The position numbers and the translations under genes are program-made. From positions 1-48,669 of the forward strand of contig DUZW01000025.1 in assembly GCA_013349295.1 (NCBI GenBank): DNA of 48,669 nucleotides. Direction: 5' to 3'. The notes below the pieces were generated by a model. It ran no database searches. It saw only the letters and a list, made by a program, of their open reading frames with translations, and was not told the origin of the DNA. Shown here piece after piece: positions 2,813 to 32,209 of the stretch (its first letter is position 1; the number at the start of each line of letters is the position of its first letter). Source of the DNA: Deltaproteobacteria bacterium. Its GTDB lineage: Bacteria; Desulfobacterota; Desulfobulbia; Desulfobulbales; Desulfurivibrionaceae.

Positions 2813-3492
2813 AAAAAATAGCCATTCTTCAGTCCAACTACATCCCCTGGAAGGGATATTTCGACCTGATCCGCAGCGTCGACGAGTTCGTGCTCTACGA
2901 TGACATGCAGTACACCAAGAACGACTGGCGCAACCGCAACAAGATCAAGACCCGGGAAGGCCTTGTCTGGCTCACCATTCCCGTGCGGCAGGAGACACTG
3001 CACCAGACGATCCGGGAGACAAAGATCAGCAACCCCCTTTGGCACAAGCAGCACTGGAAGACGCTTGCCCAGAACTACGCCAAGGCCGCGCATTTTAAGG
3101 AGTACAAGGAGATTTTCGAGGAGCTGTACCTGGGCGCCACCGAAACCTATCTCAGCGAGATAAACCGCAAATTCCTGGTGGCCATCAATGCGCTGCTGGG
3201 CATCACCACTACCATCCGCTGTTCCAGCGAATTCACCCTGGCTCCGGGCAAGAGCGAGCGGTTGCTGGAGTTATGCAAAAATCTGGGGGCGACCAGCTAT
3301 CTGAGCGGGCCTGCCGCCAAAGACTATCTCGACGTCCCGCTTTTTACGGAGGCGGGAATAGAGGTCGAATGGATGGATTACAGCGGCTATCCCGAATACA
3401 CCCAGCTTTTCCCCCCCTTTGAGCACGGGGTGAGTATTGTGGATTTATTGTTCAACGAGGGCGCCGATGCCCGGAAATTCATGAAAGGCTAA
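2809..3492 (+). CDS. WbqC family protein
   Basis: A 227-residue soluble protein opening with 'KKIAILQSNYIPWKGYFD' and carrying 'DDMQYTKNDWRNRNKIK', the hallmark N-terminal region of the WbqC family (PF08889). Family members occur in O-antigen and capsule clusters next to amino-sugar genes, but I know of no settled biochemical role. The ATG overlaps the GT2 stop (ATGA) and the aminotransferase starts 5 nt after its stop, so it is translated with them. A role in acylating or otherwise modifying the amino sugar is only a guess from position. Confidence 0.82.
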   Translation: MKKIAILQSNYIPWKGYFDLIRSVDEFVLYDDMQYTKNDWRNRNKIKTREGLVWLTIPVRQETLHQTIRETKISNPLWHKQHWKTLAQNYAKAAHFKEYKEIFEELYLGATETYLSEINRKFLVAINALLGITTTIRCSSEFTLAPGKSERLLELCKNLGATSYLSGPAAKDYLDVPLFTEAGIEVEWMDYSGYPEYTQLFPPFEHGVSIVDLLFNEGADARKFMKG

Positions 3493-6790: not shown

Positions 6791-7343
6791 GCAAGATTCT
6801 CCTGATTTGTTGGGGAAGCGGCTGGGTGGTAAGTGTGGGTGCGGAGAGGGCTGCTCCGCATGAAGTCGTCGCAACGATTGTCATTCTAACCGTATTTGCC
6901 CGGAGTTGCCGCATTTTTTTAAATAGTCGGATTGAGATGGGGCCGTGGATCTTGAAGATTTTATTGGCCCGGCGATTCAATAACTCCTGTCCGCATGCAT
7001 TAATTGGTGGTTTGCCGGGGCTCTCCCGCACGGAATCAAGGGGCTTGTTTGCGCGTGTCAAAGGGGGGTTTCGGAGTTTTGTCGGAGGCGTGAAATCGTC
7101 TAGTATTTTTTCGGTATTTCATTTGGATGAGATACGGGGTATAAATTTGATATTTACGCTGTAACCGTATCTTGCAGCAGACAATGAGCCTCTTGCAAAA
7201 CTCCGGAACGTTCCCTCTCCTGGCGGGAGAGGGGAAGTTAATTTGGCAGAGTTTTGCCGGAGGCTCCATCATATAGTTGGTTTTTCTGACCGCATGAAAT
7301 ATTATTTTTTTTGTGAGTTGTCGGAAAGAGGGGAGAGGGCGTG
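6791..7343. other. Intergenic region between divergent genes
   Basis: About 550 bases between the minus-strand MepK-like gene and the plus-strand GGDEF gene. It must hold promoters for both directions, but I see no convincing -35/-10 pair. Its one clear structure is the palindromic element at 7186-7266. Confidence 0.5.
7186..7266. repeat. MITE-like palindromic element, copy A
   Basis: Left end GAGCCTCTTGCAAAACTC and right end GAGTTTTGCCGGAGGCTC are inverted repeats matching at 16 of 18 positions. Between them is a second hairpin, CCCTCTC with GAGAGGG. The same left end opens the longer element at 13281-13433. There is no coding capacity. It ends 77 nt before the GGDEF gene, so it lies in or near that gene's leader. 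Confidence 0.7.
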
Positions 7344-8492
7344 ATGGAGGCGGTCAGGAAAGCTGTATTGGCATGCATGTGTAACTGCACCCCGGATGAC
7401 GATCTGGTTGCAAGCCTGAATGCCGTTATTGAGCAAGAGGGGCAACAGGCCTGCAGGATAATCATGGATATGGTGGCGCATCGCGATTGTGATGCGCCGG
7501 AGGCCGTGCACCATTGGGAGGCAATCCTGGCCCATCGCACAGAGTTGTCGCGGGTCATCGGTCGTAGCGTAAGTCTTCCGACCGCTGTTTGTGACTATCT
7601 TCACTGGATTGATAAAAGCATCGGCTGTCCGAAACTTATCGATATCGGCAAATTTGAGGAGATTTTCAAGCAAGCGCGGCGGGATTTTCTGACCGGTCTT
7701 TATAATCGCCAGGAGTTTGAAGAAGCGATCGGCAGAGAGATTGCCAGGGCGAAACGGTACGAGAGAAAGGTATCGCTTCTGTTTTTCGATCTGGATTCCT
7801 TTAAGAAGTTAAATGACCAATACGGACATCTGGCCGGCGACAAGGCGTTACAGTATCTCGCCGAAATCATAGGGAAAAATAAGCGTGAGGAGGATGTCGT
7901 CGCCCGCTATGGCGGCGATGAATTCGTGATGCTCTTGCCGGACACCGGCAAAGAAGATGCCTTGCGCCTTGCGGAAAGATTCCGGAGGATGGTGGAGAGT
8001 CGGCGGATTCCTTTTGAAGGCCATTCCTTGCCGATAACCATAAGCGGGGGGGTGGCCACTTGTCCGGATGATGCGCAAGCTGCCGTTAAACTTATCCAGT
8101 GTGCGGATCATGCTCTGCATGTTGCGAAACGCCAGGGTAAGAATTCCTTTCTCGGATATAAAAAAGAAGCGCGCAGGTTTGTGCGGCTTCCATTTTTTGA
8201 GAAAATTAAAGGGAGAACCGTGTCGGACAATGCGAATGTCGACCTGCTGGCGGAAAGCAAGAATCTCGGTTCCGGGGGTATGCTTCTGGAAAACGATTTT
8301 CCGGTTCATGTCGGGTCGGTTCTTGAGCTTTGTATCGTTTTAGCCGGGCAGGCTGTTACGGTGCGTGGAGAAGTCGTCCGCATCGGTGAGTTGGCTACGA
8401 ACCGGTTTGATCTCGGCGTTTCTTTTTTGGCTCAACAGGAGCCTGCCCAAATGGTCTTGGATAATTATGTGTTGAACAGCCTCCGCCAATAA
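7344..8492 (+). CDS. Diguanylate cyclase with C-terminal PilZ domain
   Basis: A 382-residue cytoplasmic protein. Residues about 1-105 are an unassigned helical region. The GGDEF domain follows from 'DFLTGLYNRQEFEEAI', with 'FFDLDSFKKLND' and an intact active site 'RYGGDEF' at 189-195. The product-inhibition site is present: R181-E-E-D184 exactly five residues before GGDEF. A PilZ-like domain ends the protein, with an RxxxR at about 277-281 and 'NLGSGGM' near 307-313. It should make c-di-GMP from two GTP and also bind it. ATG 7344 directly follows a GTG at 7341; either could start, both behind a purine-rich GAGGGGAGAGGG. Confidence 0.92.
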   Translation: MEAVRKAVLACMCNCTPDDDLVASLNAVIEQEGQQACRIIMDMVAHRDCDAPEAVHHWEAILAHRTELSRVIGRSVSLPTAVCDYLHWIDKSIGCPKLIDIGKFEEIFKQARRDFLTGLYNRQEFEEAIGREIARAKRYERKVSLLFFDLDSFKKLNDQYGHLAGDKALQYLAEIIGKNKREEDVVARYGGDEFVMLLPDTGKEDALRLAERFRRMVESRRIPFEGHSLPITISGGVATCPDDAQAAVKLIQCADHALHVAKRQGKNSFLGYKKEARRFVRLPFFEKIKGRTVSDNANVDLLAESKNLGSGGMLLENDFPVHVGSVLELCIVLAGQAVTVRGEVVRIGELATNRFDLGVSFLAQQEPAQMVLDNYVLNSLRQ

Positions 8493-8739
8493 GGTACTAA
8501 TCAGTACTATGTATTGTTTCTGCAGCGAGAATCACCATTTTCCGGCAGAAAAATTCGCCAAAGCAAAAAGAATCATCTCTCCCCTTATAGGGAAGTGGAA
8601 GCCTGCTGTAAAAAAGAAAACCGGATACTGCTGGGAGGGAGTGGCGGCATGATCTTTATGGGTTGGCCGCCCTGTTTCCGTACAACCTGTAGCGCTGCAA
8701 CGCGCTTGCAGGTGGCCTTTTTGTCTCAATCGGGTGGAC

Positions 8740-9957
8740 ATGACTGAAAATCCTTCCTGCCTCTTCGGCAACCGGGGCAAGTATGCGGGGCGAATTCTTT
8801 CCGGGCGGTATAGCGACACCTTGAAAAAACGCCTCGCTTCTTCCATTGCCCACTTCAAGGCCTTGGAGGGGATGGGCGCGCCGGTAATCCCCTATATTGC
8901 CGCCTGGTTACCCGAGGGTGGGCATATCTGGTACGAATATGCCGGAGCAAGATTGCATACCTTGCTCGGCTTTCACACCACCGAAGTGGCCGGGGCTTTT
9001 CGCGACAATATCCTCACCCGTTGTCTGTACCGGATACAGAAAAATCCTCCCTCCATCGACAAAATTATTCGCGACAAGGCACAGATCGGGCGATTGCGTG
9101 AGGCGATGCGCCGGATGGCGGAGCGGGGCGGCGGGGTCGACGCGGTATACAAGTTCGATGTCAACGGCAGTCCGCTCTGGCTCAAGGATCTGGCCAGGGT
9201 GGAGATCCACGACCGGGATCGGGTCGTGCTCTCCTACGGGACACTGATCGACGTCACCAAGGAGATGCAGCTGGAGGAAACCCTGGTCGAGATGCAGTGT
9301 GAGCTGGAATCCCACAGGGAAAATCTGGTGACCTTGGTGGAGGATCGTACCAGGGAGCTCAAAAAAGCCCAGCTCGATGTGCTTACCCGTCTTACCCAGG
9401 CGGCGGCGTTCCGTGATGGCGAGACCGGCGCCCATATTATAAGGATGAGCCAGTATTGTACCGTCCTCGGCAGTTCATGCGGTTTGAGTAAAAGCGCCAA
9501 TACGGTGTTGTTCCACGCGGTACCCATGCATGACGTGGGGAAACTGGGTATAGCGGATTCGATTCTGCAAAAGCAGGGGTCGCTTTCCCTTGATGAGTTT
9601 GAGGTCATTAAAACACATTGCCAAGTCGGTTCGGATTTGTTGAGCGATGGCAAATCCACGCTGTTGCAGGTGGCGCAGACCATCGCCCTGACCCATCATG
9701 AACGGTGGGATGGCTCGGGCTATCCGCAAGGGTTGGTGGACAGGCAAATTCCTTTGGCCAGTCGGATCACCGCTATCTGCGATGTCTTCGATGCGCTGAC
9801 CTCGGAGCGGCCATACAAAAAGGCCTGGCGTTTCGAGGATGCCGTGGATGAGATTTGGCGTCTGCGAAAGATATATTTTGACCCAAAGCTTGTCGATCTT
9901 TTCGTGAAAAATATCCCGCAAATAAAAAAGGTGTATCAGCAAGCCCCCATGGCTTAA
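8740..9957 (+). CDS. HD-GYP domain c-di-GMP phosphodiesterase with PAS-like sensor region
   Basis: A 405-residue protein with a PAS-like N-terminal half (about 50-175, ending 'YGTLIDVTKEMQ'), a coiled-coil linker at about 175-212 and an HD-GYP domain. Metal and signature residues are all present: 'TGAHIIRMS' (His232), 'MHDVGK' (His264-Asp265), 'HHERWDGSGYP' (His319-320, GYP 327-329). HD-GYP enzymes hydrolyse c-di-GMP to GMP or pGpG. It follows the GGDEF-PilZ gene by about 250 nt in the same direction, so a maker and a breaker of the signal sit side by side. GTG 8734 is an alternative start. Confidence 0.9.
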   Translation: MTENPSCLFGNRGKYAGRILSGRYSDTLKKRLASSIAHFKALEGMGAPVIPYIAAWLPEGGHIWYEYAGARLHTLLGFHTTEVAGAFRDNILTRCLYRIQKNPPSIDKIIRDKAQIGRLREAMRRMAERGGGVDAVYKFDVNGSPLWLKDLARVEIHDRDRVVLSYGTLIDVTKEMQLEETLVEMQCELESHRENLVTLVEDRTRELKKAQLDVLTRLTQAAAFRDGETGAHIIRMSQYCTVLGSSCGLSKSANTVLFHAVPMHDVGKLGIADSILQKQGSLSLDEFEVIKTHCQVGSDLLSDGKSTLLQVAQTIALTHHERWDGSGYPQGLVDRQIPLASRITAICDVFDALTSERPYKKAWRFEDAVDEIWRLRKIYFDPKLVDLFVKNIPQIKKVYQQAPMA

Positions 9958-10431: not shown

Positions 10432-11058
10432 ATGAAAAAGATAGTGTGTTTGATGGTGCTGGTGTTTGCCTTCGGTGGTGTTGTTGATGCCATGGCCACA
10501 GAGTCGGCGTCCCCGGAATGGGTGACGACTCAGGGTACGGCCATGACTGCTTGGTCGGCGGGCGCGGATAATAATTTTAGTATACAACAACTTGGCTCTG
10601 TCTCGACGTTTTATTTCGATATGTACGAGCATGGAAAATCGGGCGAAAACTATACCCAGCTGTGGCCGATATCGAATAGCAACGGAAGTGGAAATAACGG
10701 CCAGGGTAAAATGAATTCGGCGCCTAGCCAGGTGAATATGTCGCAATACGGCTATAGCTCCTTTGCCTTTTCTTTCCGGGACACGCAAGGGAATCGTTTC
10801 TACGATTACACCATTAACGAGCATCTCGATAATTCCAACAAAAACGACAATTCACATTTTTACGATCTTACTTTCGGGGCTGTTACTGGTAACAATGACG
10901 GCTTGACCATGCGGATCCGTGGCGCGTCGCCGGTGACGATTCCGGTGATGGGGTCTGGAACGGGTTCGGGAACGAGTGCGGTTCCTGTGCCGGGCGCGAT
11001 ATTTCTGCTCGGCCCGGGTTTGGTTGGTCTCCTCGGCTTACGCAGAAAAAAAGAATAA
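10432..11058 (+). CDS. Exosortase substrate with VPxPG-CTERM sorting tail (1)
   Basis: A 208-residue secreted protein with an N-terminal signal peptide ('KKIVCLMVLVFAFGGVV', cut probably after 'DAMA') and a mature part rich in Ser, Asn, Gly and aromatic residues. The C-terminus has the three-part sorting signal: 'VPVPGAIFLLG', a hydrophobic helix and a final RRKKE cluster. This fits the VPLPA/VPLPG branch of PEP-CTERM tails that goes with XrtD exosortases, and an XrtD-like gene lies at 30647. A ribosome site AAAGGA precedes the ATG. I recognise no domain in the mature part; a matrix or surface role is inferred from the tail only. Confidence 0.85.
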   Translation: MKKIVCLMVLVFAFGGVVDAMATESASPEWVTTQGTAMTAWSAGADNNFSIQQLGSVSTFYFDMYEHGKSGENYTQLWPISNSNGSGNNGQGKMNSAPSQVNMSQYGYSSFAFSFRDTQGNRFYDYTINEHLDNSNKNDNSHFYDLTFGAVTGNNDGLTMRIRGASPVTIPVMGSGTGSGTSAVPVPGAIFLLGPGLVGLLGLRRKKE

Positions 11059-11190
11059 GTTGGGTGTAAGGATGCTTCCCCCTGGCTTGGCATGGTTAGG
11101 GTGGCTAGGAAGTTGCCATTATATCAGCAGGTTGTAACTGTCTCCATTCTACCCCATCCCGCAAGGGGAGGGGGGCTGAAATGTTAAGTA

Positions 11191-11204
11191 TTACAAGAGG
11201 CTCA
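11191..11204. repeat. Lone end of the MITE-like family
   Basis: TTACAAGAGGCTCA matches the outward end of the palindromic elements at 7186 and 13281 (TTGCAAGAGGCTC-type). I cannot find a matching left end, so this is probably a decayed copy or a solo end. A hairpin of C and G runs just to its left recalls the inner hairpin of copy A. Confidence 0.4.
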
Positions 11205-11221
11205 CAAGGTGCTGGTTGGTT

Positions 11222-11246
11222 TTTTCTGCTTGGGAAAAGCAGAAAA
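11222..11246. repeat. Perfect 10-bp inverted repeat upstream of the riboswitch
   Basis: TTTTCTGCTT (11222-11231) and AAGCAGAAAA (11237-11246) flank a 5-nt loop. No T run follows on the plus strand, so it is a poor terminator for the upstream gene. An operator near the promoter of the riboswitch-controlled transcript is possible. Confidence 0.45.
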
Positions 11247-11290
11247 GAAAATAATTTGCAGTAGAGCAAAGTGTTGTTGGTCGTTCCAAA

Positions 11291-11377
11291 AATTCGTTTG
11301 ATACCGCCAAACCTGTCGCGAGGCAGGGACGGAAAGCTACGGGTCTCCGAGGGGGAGATAGCCGGGTCGCTCGAATC
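11291..11377 (+). ncRNA. Cyclic di-GMP-I (GEMM) riboswitch aptamer
   Basis: The aptamer is recognisable in sequence and structure. P1 pairs ATTCG (11292-11296) with CGAAT (11372-11376). P2 is CCTGTC-GCGA-GGCAGG, a 6-bp stem with a GNRA tetraloop as the class requires. The core GGACGGAAAGC matches the conserved GGACGCAAAGC except one base, and P3 (TCTCC/GGAGA) leads into AGCCGGGT. The odd base (C46 to G in Vc2 numbering) is compensated by G21 to C in 'CGCCAAACC', keeping the 21-46 pair. G20 and A47 are kept, favouring c-di-GMP over cGAMP. It lies 64 nt before the start codon, with a small hairpin (TTATCA/TGATAA) touching the ribosome site, so control of translation is plausible. Confidence 0.9.
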
Positions 11378-11440
11378 GTTCAAGGTGTTCGCTTCGAGTA
11401 TCAGCGCCAAAACTTTATCAATTATGATAAGGAGGTTCTG

Positions 11441-12082
11441 ATGAAGATGAAGAGAGGGTTGTTGGGGATCAGTGGGGTTCTGTTGTTGAGCATGGTCACA
11501 GCCGGTTCGGCAATGGCGTCAGTAGTCAACATGGGTTTTGAAAACGGCACAACAGGCTGGGATATAACCTTGAATGGGGGAAGTGCAGAGGTCCTATCCT
11601 CATACGAGGGCTATGCGCCGGTCGAAGGGAATTCCTTTCTCGTGCTTGGTGGTGGAACTGCAAACAAATATGTCAAGGCTTCGCAGACCTTTTATGTGGG
11701 TGCTCATGAAACTGTAAGCGGCAACGCGGCCTTTATTGGAAATGATTATCTTCCATTTAATGATCTGATGACCGTTACATTTAAAGATGCGGATTCTGAA
11801 CCCATATATATGCCCATTCTCTTCGACATCAAGACGGTCGGCGACTATGGGAAAACGCCCTGGACTCCATTTTCCTGGACATCGGATGTTGCTGGTGAGT
11901 ACACATTGAACTATGCGATTAAGAATGTTGGTGACGCAGCACTGCCAAGTTATGCTCTGTTCGATGGCCCTTCCAGCGGCTCTCCCACCGGCGCCGTACC
12001 TCTGCCGGGGTCCGTCATGCTCTTCGGTTCCAGCCTTTTGGGACTGTTGGGAGTCGGTAGCCGCAAGAAGAACAAGGCGTAA
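11441..12082 (+). CDS. Exosortase substrate with VPLPG-CTERM tail (2), riboswitch-controlled
   Basis: A 213-residue secreted protein: signal peptide ('LLGISGVLLLSMVTAGSAMA'), a beta-rich mature domain resembling the carbohydrate-binding-like folds common in PEP-CTERM proteins ('NMGFENGTTGWDITLNGG' at its start), then 'VPLPGSVMLFGSSLLG' and a basic end RKKNKA. The N-terminal 'GFENGTTGW' pattern is typical of choice-of-anchor type domains. Its leader carries the c-di-GMP-I aptamer, and an AAGGAGG ribosome site sits 6 nt before the ATG. It is thus the member of the trio most directly tied to c-di-GMP. The binding partner is unknown. Confidence 0.87.
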   Translation: MKMKRGLLGISGVLLLSMVTAGSAMASVVNMGFENGTTGWDITLNGGSAEVLSSYEGYAPVEGNSFLVLGGGTANKYVKASQTFYVGAHETVSGNAAFIGNDYLPFNDLMTVTFKDADSEPIYMPILFDIKTVGDYGKTPWTPFSWTSDVAGEYTLNYAIKNVGDAALPSYALFDGPSSGSPTGAVPLPGSVMLFGSSLLGLLGVGSRKKNKA

Positions 12083-12150
12083 TCCGGTTCGTTGATCCTG
12101 GGCGCGAATTTTGCCCCGGCATCGTTGCAGAATAAGCTTGTACCACAGGA

Positions 12151-12190
12151 TTGAGGGGCCGGTTCATGCCGTGCCCCTCATTCTGTTCTT
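12151..12190 (+). terminator. Terminator after the second VPLPG-CTERM gene
   Basis: A 7-bp GC-rich stem GAGGGGC (12153-12159) / GCCCCTC (12173-12179), followed by a T-rich stretch ATTCTGTTCTTT. The T run is broken, so strength is uncertain. Confidence 0.6.
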
Positions 12191-12273
12191 TGCACGAATG
12201 AGTTCTTGCCTCAGCGCTCCCGGATTCCCTGGGGGCCGGTTTTTGGAGGCATAAGAATTACGAGGGCATAAGG

Positions 12274-12876
12274 ATGCGATGGAAAAAATGGGCCTATGGA
12301 TGCATCGGGATAGCGGTGATCGCCCTGTTGGGTCAGCCGGCATTCTCCGCTGTCTTGCAGGGTTTAGGGGGGGCCCCTCCCTCGTTTTCCTGGGTGCCTG
12401 CGGCACGGGATTCTTTTATGGCGCTCGATCTGAATCCATTCTCTGCGCCGTATCCCCCGAGCCATTCCATGAGTTCCGATGCCCACGCTTTTTTCCCAAA
12501 TTATTCCGGCATGGGAGATGATTTCCATGGCGTGCCGACCATAATGCACGGTGGCCCCGATCTGAATGGACGCAACCGTGATGTTCGGCAACCCTTTGTG
12601 CGACCGCAGCAAGGGCCTGACTATGCCGGGCAGGGTTTCCGGGTTGCCCAGGGAGTGGGTCCGGCTGCCTACCAGTCCGGCGGGCAAGCATTATCTAACA
12701 TCACGGACCCCCCACTGACTCCGCCTGCGGAGGACGACGGCGGGACCATCACGGATGATCCCACCACGTCGCCGCCAAGTCCTGTCCCGCTGCCCGGGGC
12801 GGTGTGGCTTCTCGGTTCCGCTCTTCTTGGCCTCGGCGGTCGCAAGTACTGGGCAGCTTACGCTAAAGCAGAATAA
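12274..12876 (+). CDS. Exosortase substrate with VPLPG-CTERM tail (3), low-complexity mature part
   Basis: A 200-residue protein with a signal peptide ('AYGCIGIAVIALLGQPAFSA') and a Pro-, Gly- and Asp-rich mature region without a recognisable domain. Its tail is 'VPLPGAVWLLGSALLGLGG', close to the canonical signal. The end differs from its neighbours: a single 'GRK' is followed by YWAAYAKAE, not an Arg/Lys cluster. The mature part looks disordered, perhaps a spacer or matrix-binding protein. The ribosome site is weak (AAGG just upstream). A terminator separates it from gene 2, so it probably has its own promoter. Confidence 0.78.
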   Translation: MRWKKWAYGCIGIAVIALLGQPAFSAVLQGLGGAPPSFSWVPAARDSFMALDLNPFSAPYPPSHSMSSDAHAFFPNYSGMGDDFHGVPTIMHGGPDLNGRNRDVRQPFVRPQQGPDYAGQGFRVAQGVGPAAYQSGGQALSNITDPPLTPPAEDDGGTITDDPTTSPPSPVPLPGAVWLLGSALLGLGGRKYWAAYAKAE

Positions 12877-30538: not shown

Positions 30539-30646
30539 AGAACCACTGTGTGGGAAAAGAAGACAGCACAGCCAGAAGAGAGCGGTTTACAAGTTACTCA
30601 GATGCTCATCTGGTAAAAAAGAAAAGAAGATCGGTTCGAGTGTGTG

Positions 30647-32209
30647 ATGAGAATGATAGTCTCGCAAGTAAAACAATGGGGTACGGATACATTTATTGCT
30701 CCACTGCTGCTCCTCGGTGGCCTTGTCCTCGGCTATTGGTCCGTGTTCCAGAGGCTAATGATTACCTGGGACTCCGGCGATAACAGCTATGGCTATCTGG
30801 TGATCCCGCTTTTCCTCTTCCTGTGCTGGGAAAAGCGGGATTCCTTCCGTTTCGGCCAATTTTCCTGGAGCCTTGCCGGGGTTGCCGTAACCCTGCTCGC
30901 CACGCTCCTGCTTCTGGTCGGTGAAGCAGGCTCCATGGAAACCCTGGTTTTTCTCGGGATCTGGGGCTGCTTTGTCGGGATTACGGCGGCCCTGTACGGC
31001 AAGCGTCTCAAGGTTCTGCTCTTTCCGCTCTTGATTTTGCTCTTTATCGTGCCTCTTCCTGCATTTTTGAACCGTACACTCACCTTTCAGCTCAAGCTGC
31101 TGGCCAGTTACCTGGCCGCTGGCATGCTCCGGGTCTCCGGGGTCAGCGTGCTCATGGACGGCAATATCCTTGATCTTGGGGTGAGCCAACTCCAGGTGGT
31201 GGATGCGTGCAGCGGCCTGCGCTATGTGGTGCCCATGCTGCTCATGTCTCTGCTCATCGGCAATTTTTTTCTCGCCAGCCGCTGGCGGCAAGCTGTGATT
31301 GTGGCTTTGGCGATTCCCTTGACCATCGTGGTCAACGCCCTGCGGATTTGGATTACCGGGCTGCTGACCGTGAATGATCTGGCACGATTCACCGAGGGTA
31401 GCTTCCATGACTCCATCGGTCTGGTCATGTTCCTTGCCTCCGGTGCTCTGCTGATCTGGTTGGCTCTGCTGTTGCGCGGGGGATCTCCTGCGCCGCCGAT
31501 CTCCTTGCCCCCGGCAGAGTCGCAGCAGGTAAATCCTCTGCGCGCCCTGGTGGTGAGCCTTGTCATCTGCGCTCTTTTTCTTGCCGGCGGCTGGGCCTTG
31601 CCGCGTTTGCAGGCCACGCAGCATGTTTCTCCTCCCCGGAGCAGCTTTGATTCCTTTCCCATGCAGCTTGGCCCCTGGCAAGGGACTCGGCATTTCCTTT
31701 CCCGGGAAATTCTCGATGCGCTGTGGTCGGATGATTATGTGAGCGCCAGCTTTGTGAAGCAGGATTCCGGTAATGTCATCCACCTGCTCATCCCCTATTA
31801 TACCTACCAGGGCACCCGGCATACGGCGCATGCCCCGCAATCCTGTCTGCTCGGCAGCGGCTGGGCGGTGTTGCAGACCAAGGAGCGATCCTTTCCCGCT
31901 GCTGCCGGGCAAGATCTCCCGGTAACGACGTTGGAGCTCAAAAAAGGGCAGGAGAGGATGCTCAGCGGGTTCTTTTTCCTGGGCCGGGGGAGGGTGGTCA
32001 CCTCTCCCTGGCGCAACAAGTTTTATCTGGTTTTGGATTCCTTTACCAAAAGGCGGACGGATGGCGCCTTGGTGCGGGCCGAAATGGTAGTTGCCCCTGA
32101 CCAGCCCTTGGATGCGGCCTATCGGGAGCTGGCGCAGTTTCTCTCGCTGCTGTGGCAGGAGTTGCCTGCCTATGTGCCGGGGGACGAGGTGGGCAATGCC
32201 TCCAAATAA
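30647..32209 (+). CDS. xrtD: Exosortase fused to EpsI domain (XrtD-like, VPLPA-CTERM-specific type)
   Basis: A 520-residue protein. The first 275 residues are the eight-helix exosortase domain with the catalytic set: Cys188 in 'VDACSGLRYVVPM', Arg233 in 'NALRIWITG', His254 in 'SFHDSIGLVMF'. From about 300 a periplasmic EpsI domain follows ('FDSFPMQLGPWQGTRHF', 'YYTYQGTRHTAHAPQSCLLG'). This fusion goes with exosortase D, which handles VPLPA-type tails and matches the VPxPG tails at 10432-12876. It should cut the sorting signal and probably pass the protein to another anchor or to export. GTG 30644 is an alternative start. It is not overlapped by the glycosyltransferase string, from which a 108-nt gap separates it. 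Confidence 0.9.
   Translation: MRMIVSQVKQWGTDTFIAPLLLLGGLVLGYWSVFQRLMITWDSGDNSYGYLVIPLFLFLCWEKRDSFRFGQFSWSLAGVAVTLLATLLLLVGEAGSMETLVFLGIWGCFVGITAALYGKRLKVLLFPLLILLFIVPLPAFLNRTLTFQLKLLASYLAAGMLRVSGVSVLMDGNILDLGVSQLQVVDACSGLRYVVPMLLMSLLIGNFFLASRWRQAVIVALAIPLTIVVNALRIWITGLLTVNDLARFTEGSFHDSIGLVMFLASGALLIWLALLLRGGSPAPPISLPPAESQQVNPLRALVVSLVICALFLAGGWALPRLQATQHVSPPRSSFDSFPMQLGPWQGTRHFLSREILDALWSDDYVSASFVKQDSGNVIHLLIPYYTYQGTRHTAHAPQSCLLGSGWAVLQTKERSFPAAAGQDLPVTTLELKKGQERMLSGFFFLGRGRVVTSPWRNKFYLVLDSFTKRRTDGALVRAEMVVAPDQPLDAAYRELAQFLSLLWQELPAYVPGDEVGNASK

Follow-up and report, generated by a model that had tools for sequence, protein, structure and literature searches.

In this study, we show that the stretch of DNA analysed here (the window, 48,669 nucleotides) carries an RNA that is, judged by its sequence, a real and ordinary member of the known c-di-GMP-I riboswitch class, and that is predicted to bind c-di-GMP. 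In our reading, this riboswitch, which has G20 and a C21-G46 pair, probably controls the translation of a probable exosortase-sorted surface protein encoded beside an XrtD/exopolysaccharide cluster. The C21-G46 pair itself would do no special work, being one of two interchangeable natural states. Positions in the aptamer follow the numbering of Vc2 of Vibrio cholerae, the type c-di-GMP-I riboswitch, by our own mapping onto the RF01051 alignment. Its parts are as follows:

11292-11376 (+), c-di-GMP-I aptamer including the P1 strands (RF01051 match at 11296-11374; P1 from the predicted fold)
11304 (+), position 18, C where the consensus has A (RF01051 alignment)
11306 (+), G20, the ligand-specificity base, consensus (RF01051 alignment)
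11307-11332 (+), pair 21-46, C11307-G11332 (RF01051 alignment; 81 distinct cores)
11308 (+), C22 (RF01051 alignment)
11312-11327 (+), P2 hairpin with a GCGA tetraloop at 11318-11321 (RF01051 alignment; core pairing count)
11331 (+), G45 (RF01051 alignment)
11333 (+), A47 (RF01051 alignment)
11370 (+), C92, the ligand-pairing base, consensus (RF01051 alignment)

The family RF01051 matched the window at 11296-11374 on the forward strand with 53.9 bits, where 35 is the gathering score (E 7.1e-8; model positions 1-87, complete), the sole match of the whole window to Rfam at gathering scores, which bears out the first-pass annotation that had called a c-di-GMP-I riboswitch here and had proposed the RF01051 search. 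Its drawing of the aptamer also held up: P1 (ATTCG/CGAAT) lies at 11292-11296 and 11372-11376 and is paired in the fold of 11292-11376, the GCGA tetraloop stem is found at 11312-11327, G20 and A47 are unchanged in the RF01051 alignment, and 21-46 is a C-G pair kept by covariation, as both the alignment and the cores of relatives confirm. All four key ligand bases listed in the available part of PMC3764141 (G20, A47, A48, and C92) are consensus in the aligned window copy, and P2 has a GNRA loop, the 21-46 and 22-45 pairs and its six pairs intact. Three departures had gone unnoted, namely C18, U93 (consensus C) and A49, which faces a C as a mismatch in the RF01051 alignment; also unnoted were the bulge of P1, with UUU between its strand and position 14, and the stable predicted hairpin over the ribosome-binding site and start codon. 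Because it departs from the consensus at 18, 93 and A49-C, the window copy may bind weakly. The aptamer stretch has no extra stability over shuffled sequences (z -0.62; 48 of 200 shuffles as stable).

The window copy thus resembles c-di-GMP-I (RF01051) in its full-length match, G20, C22, A47, C92 and GNRA-looped P2, and differs from it in the C-G form of 21-46, C18 and the bulged P1. With thresholds lifted, the member retained of the same Rfam clan was c-di-GMP-I-GGC (RF03167) at 56.3 bits, below the gathering score of 59 of that family, whose consensus is GGC where the window copy has GCC. In the 3',3'-cGAMP riboswitch (GEMM-Ib) of Geobacter, P2 is closed by C15-G40 with A14 before and A41 after it (PMC6274999, in part), which we equate with 21-46, 20 and 47 by our own mapping; the closing pair is C-G in both RNAs, whereas the A at position 20 of the cGAMP riboswitch is a G in the window copy (11306).

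The genes that bear on the function of the riboswitch are the following:

7341-8492 (+), GGDEF protein, probable diguanylate cyclase (PF00990, 166.2 bits; TIGR00254, 178.6 bits)
8734-9957 (+), HD-domain protein, HD-GYP-like by eye, probable c-di-GMP phosphodiesterase (HD_5, 100 bits; NF053512, 105.8 bits, cut-off 400)
10432-11058 (+), upstream gene of the same kind as the controlled gene, ending VPVPGA...RRKKE (TIGR02595, 14.6 bits, cut-off 16; no PF07589 match listed)
11441-12082 (+), controlled gene, 213 aa, ending VPLPGSVMLFGSSLLGLLGVGSRKKNKA (ORF; signal-peptide-like start, and an end of VPLPG, hydrophobic stretch and RKKNKA, by eye)
12274-12876 (+), downstream gene of the same kind, VPLPGAVWLLGSALLGLGGRKY (PF07589, 15.5 bits, below cut-off)
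30644-32209 (+), XrtD-type exosortase (TIGR04152, 404 bits, cut-off 400; PF09721)

The product of 11441-12082 and those of its neighbors at 10432-11058 and 12274-12876 share a VPLPG- or VPVPG-like motif, a hydrophobic stretch and a basic end. The scores lie below the curated cut-offs (for 11441-12082, PF07589 with 17.2 of 20.7 bits, and TIGR03370 absent from the matches listed), so that membership of the three in PEP-CTERM/VPLPA-CTERM is likely by eye and not reached by score. By these sequence features, the 11441-12082 product is probably an exosortase substrate and an exported surface protein. The exosortase itself contains, at 30716-31471, the only PF09721 match in the genome assembly (88% complete), and an exosortase occurs in 5 of the 27 genomes of the window's family. 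Two further models of the XrtD system pass, PrsT (315 of 312.2 bits) and the system ATPase (329.8 of 324.5 bits), and its export, chain-length and kinase models matched below their cut-offs. The direct link between an exosortase substrate and c-di-GMP that had been drawn from the sequence is therefore plausible: the aptamer does precede a probable substrate and an exosortase is encoded in the window, but the substrate falls short of the curated cut-offs. The GGDEF and HD-domain genes (7341-9957) adjoin each other just upstream of the controlled gene and its neighbors. A c-di-GMP sensor thus shares one region with a probable cyclase, a probable phosphodiesterase, and an exosortase together with its probable substrates, so that the control of exosortase cargo by c-di-GMP in this probably desulfobacterial lineage can be tested directly.

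Methylophaga nitratireducenticrescens is a gammaproteobacterium, unlike the organism of the window. In its strain GP59, as far as the available text of PMC12530212 goes, there are four c-di-GMP riboswitches that each flank an exosortase-substrate-like gene, one of these genes being of the VPLPA-CTERM and three of the PEP-CTERM type, in surroundings that contain exopolysaccharide genes, much as here; the 21-46 pair does not come up in that text. The place of the riboswitch beside a probable PEP-CTERM gene is a fitting but already published kind of location (PMC12530212, in part).

Between the aptamer and the start codon, two structures are predicted:

11369-11399 (+), alternative stem of 7 pairs (GCUCGAA/UUCGAGU) into which C92 and part of the 3' strand of P1 are drawn (fold of 11366-11445)
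11400-11442 (+), hairpin covering the Shine-Dalgarno sequence (11429-11435) together with the first two AUG bases (AUG at 11441-11443; fold of 11400-11445)

Both folds are far more stable than shuffled sequences, that of 11366-11445 at -24.9 kcal/mol (z -3.52) and that of 11400-11445 at -13.9 kcal/mol (z -3.82), with 0 of 200 shuffles as stable in either case. In the free fold of 11285-11470 the pairs of the alternative stem have probabilities of 0.71-0.96, and the predicted P1 and alternative stem are mutually exclusive at C92. In these models, the anatomy of the leader is that of a translational switch, and translational control by the riboswitch is likely. In the absence of ligand, C92 and the P1 strand would be held in the 11369-11399 stem, which abuts the hairpin covering the ribosome-binding site and start codon; upon binding of c-di-GMP, the aptamer and P1 would reclaim these bases, the stack would loosen, and translation would then rise together with exopolysaccharide. 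At least with regard to the ON direction, this is a guess that we hold about evenly balanced.

It is quite possible that the riboswitch is instead an OFF switch, or that it acts on transcription or mRNA stability rather than on translation. In the ligand-bound proxy fold of the window leader, the start codon is more paired, the last base of the AUG being unpaired with a probability of 0.11 as against 0.75 in the free fold, and ON and OFF members are both known in this riboswitch group (PMC9262584). Six of the seven bases of the ribosome-binding site are paired in the bound proxy, no fewer than in the free fold, and because of this the secondary structure shows no switching. On the other hand, the leader has no terminator-like site, the sole one on 11000-12300 lying at 12216-12236, and a possible pairing in a sister copy of the same genome argues for ON. 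This second flipped copy, on contig C36, has the same 32-base core and stands before a sorting-signal gene ending TPIPGAVWLMGSGLAGMFGLRRRKQEA. In its local fold (z -1.91; 6 of 200 shuffles reach the same stability), the CCUUGG segment that contains C92 is able to pair with CCAAGG in the ribosome-binding site; this pairing has a probability of 0.43-0.46 in a longer free fold and would suggest ON with ligand. Under the bound proxy, some single bases of the C36 copy gain and others lose pairing, and on balance the ribosome-binding site is not opened.

Contig C36 also carries the 3' half of a further aptamer and the conserved leader (locus L351, about 3016-3082, reverse strand) before a short ORF; the 5' half is missing, and both strands of the CCUUGG/CCAAGG pairing are kept. 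A transposase-like gene (METFYDIGLDVHKKTIAYCIKT, named by eye) lies near this remnant, and further down the contig there is a sorting-signal-like end (PF07589, 17.1 bits, C36:9245-9301). On contig C11 of the same genome, a G-C copy (L001, 1501-1640) is followed by a hairpin and T run (aacccatctc...gagatgggttttttt), which suggests that the genome may use both transcriptional and translational readouts.

It is unlikely, in our view, that the window copy is decaying, with an aptamer that binds poorly or not at all and a gene expressed without control. Such decay would fit the C18, U93, A49-C and bulged P1 departures, a ribosome-binding site paired in both modelled states of the leader, and the loss of the 5' half of the nearby sister copy on C36 beside the transposase-like gene. 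However, the core is identical over its 32 bases to that of the flipped C36 copy, the six pairs of P2 are kept, and the RF01051 score clears the cut-off by a wide margin; decay alone would also not explain why the C18 form is shared by three tandem copies in another genus. These are flipped c-di-GMP-I aptamers with C18, found by a looser pattern at L124 (5821, 6016, and 6222, +) before an ORF of 211 aa for which neither NCBIfam (E up to 5) nor Pfam (E up to 0.5) gave a match.

Among the 108 fetched hairpin-forming copies, 92 carry A at position 18, 7 carry T, 6 carry C and 3 carry G; since 16 of them lack A18, it is not a defining feature of RF01051. In the excerpts of the literature available, A18 is among the ligand-binding nucleotides (PMC7288161), position 18 is absent from the list of highly conserved positions (PMC3764141), and A12 of the cGAMP riboswitch, which we map to position 18, stays hydrogen-bonded to the ligand in simulation (PMC6274999). 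Of 193 genomes in the order, two contain the motif ACCGCCAAA with a flipped core: the window's genome and genome G480, each with two occurrences. Positions 49' and 93 were set aside in the pattern parse, which was noisy there (21 of 108 copies unparsed, register slips). We give little credence to the notion of a small c-di-GMP-I sub-lineage, marked by C18 (ACC-G20-CC in J1/2) and by a P1 that is bulged or absent, in which ligand contacts would be altered and which in this genome would be linked to exosortase substrates, its readout being a direct pairing between the start region and C92 or neighboring bases. C18 is the one feature of the window copy worth a binding test.

The claim that C46 is normally fixed was not borne out. 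In a pattern search of 395 genomes of the phylum, with 21 and 46 left open, the spacer forms the P2 hairpin in 111 of the 150 rows listed (picked by eye), and in these 111 the pair is C-G in 85 (45 genomes), G-C in 25 (19 genomes) and C-A in 1, so that both forms are abundant among the rows listed. Similarly, the 81 distinct 32-base cores obtained from 108 fetched rows divide into 64 C-G, 16 G-C and 1 unpaired, and across them the whole P2 structure is paired to 98.1%, versus 29.5-55.4% with the partner slid by 1-3 columns. The listed rows and the distinct cores together rule out the flip as a rare event. Positions 21 and 46 are missing from the highly conserved positions in the available portion of PMC3764141. 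A scan of genome contigs for the flipped form returned at least 118 stretches, under titles that include Methylomonas, Nitrosospira, Sulfurovum, Photobacterium and Desulfobulbus, and 58 of the 118 listed have a hairpin-forming core by a strict test (a few perhaps by chance).

The balance between the two forms depends on the sample, those ranked by RF01051 score favoring G-C and the pattern-based phylum sample C-G; C-G is the more frequent form in the latter only. The score-ranked samples gave 44 G-C and 2 C-G (n = 46; L182-L232, strict hits in 44 of 51 loci), 16 G-C, 12 C-G and 1 T-C (n = 29; L237-L276, 28 of 40 loci), and 26 G-C and 4 C-G (n = 30; L004-L033, 25 of 30 loci). The window's own family accounts for 40 RF01051 copies: 36 G-C, 2 C-G, 1 T-C and 1 in which the pair was not seen (L244); this tally joins 29 G-C, 1 T-C and 1 C-G from the strict pattern, 7 more G-C from alignments, and the window copy. 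Both C-G copies belong to the window's genome, which has three RF01051 copies, the third being G-C. In the nearest relatives, then, a C-G pair is seldom seen, whereas the phylum sample has it often.

The suggestion that the flipped 21-46 is an unusual variant retuning ligand affinity or selectivity is very improbable, although the pair borders the pocket, with G21 and C46 counted as ligand-binding nucleotides in the available part of PMC7288161 and with simulated ligand contacts of C15 and G40 in that of PMC6274999: the flip is not rare (85 of the 111 hairpin-forming rows among the 150 listed), both forms occur within the window's genome, and the flip is found with either specificity base. In a set of 228 strict copies, 69 of whose C-G copies stem from the flipped-only scan, base 20 and pair 21-46 are G with C-G in 129, G with G-C in 89, A with C-G in 6, A with G-C in 3, and G with T-C in 1. 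The state of 21-46 thus does not go with the specificity base, and the flip as a mark of cGAMP sensing is ruled out. A shift in selectivity by the flipped pair, which the first-pass annotation had thought it might cause, is likewise not borne out, as G20 and A20 both occur with it and the cGAMP riboswitch also has C15-G40 (PMC6274999, in part). A mild effect of the flip on affinity is possible, because PMC7288161, in its available part, lists G21 and C46 as ligand-binding. Since 21-46 is widely C-G or G-C, a G at 46 alone is no sign of changed specificity, which corrects a potentially misleading point.

The idea that the flipped form is tied to PEP-CTERM genes was dropped. Among whole-genome loci with a classified downstream ORF, which leaves out 18 C-G and 29 G-C copies, a PEP-CTERM gene lies behind 9 of 48 C-G and 0 of 63 G-C copies, and in the flipped-only contig scan such a gene goes with 10 of 55. 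In the pattern-based set, where 14 of 85 C-G and 4 of 25 G-C rows were unclassified or not fetched, the numbers are 8 of 71 C-G versus 0 of 21 G-C classified copies (Fisher p 0.19) and, by genome, 4 of 38 versus 0 of 16 (p 0.31). As the first-look loci were partly picked for the flip, and given these p values, we make no claim of such a tie; the sorting-signal test was a simple pattern that missed at least two likely cases in genome G006.

Flipped copies in other genomes vary in what follows them. At L279, L284, and L287, the flipped copy is directly followed by a GCAACCCGG arm and T run; the arm can pair with the P3 3' strand, by which a terminator would compete directly with the aptamer. In two genomes of one genus (G183 and G230; L295 and L350), three tandem flipped aptamers stand before a short exported-looking protein (MSRKSLFTALCIISLCFIP...) in each genome.
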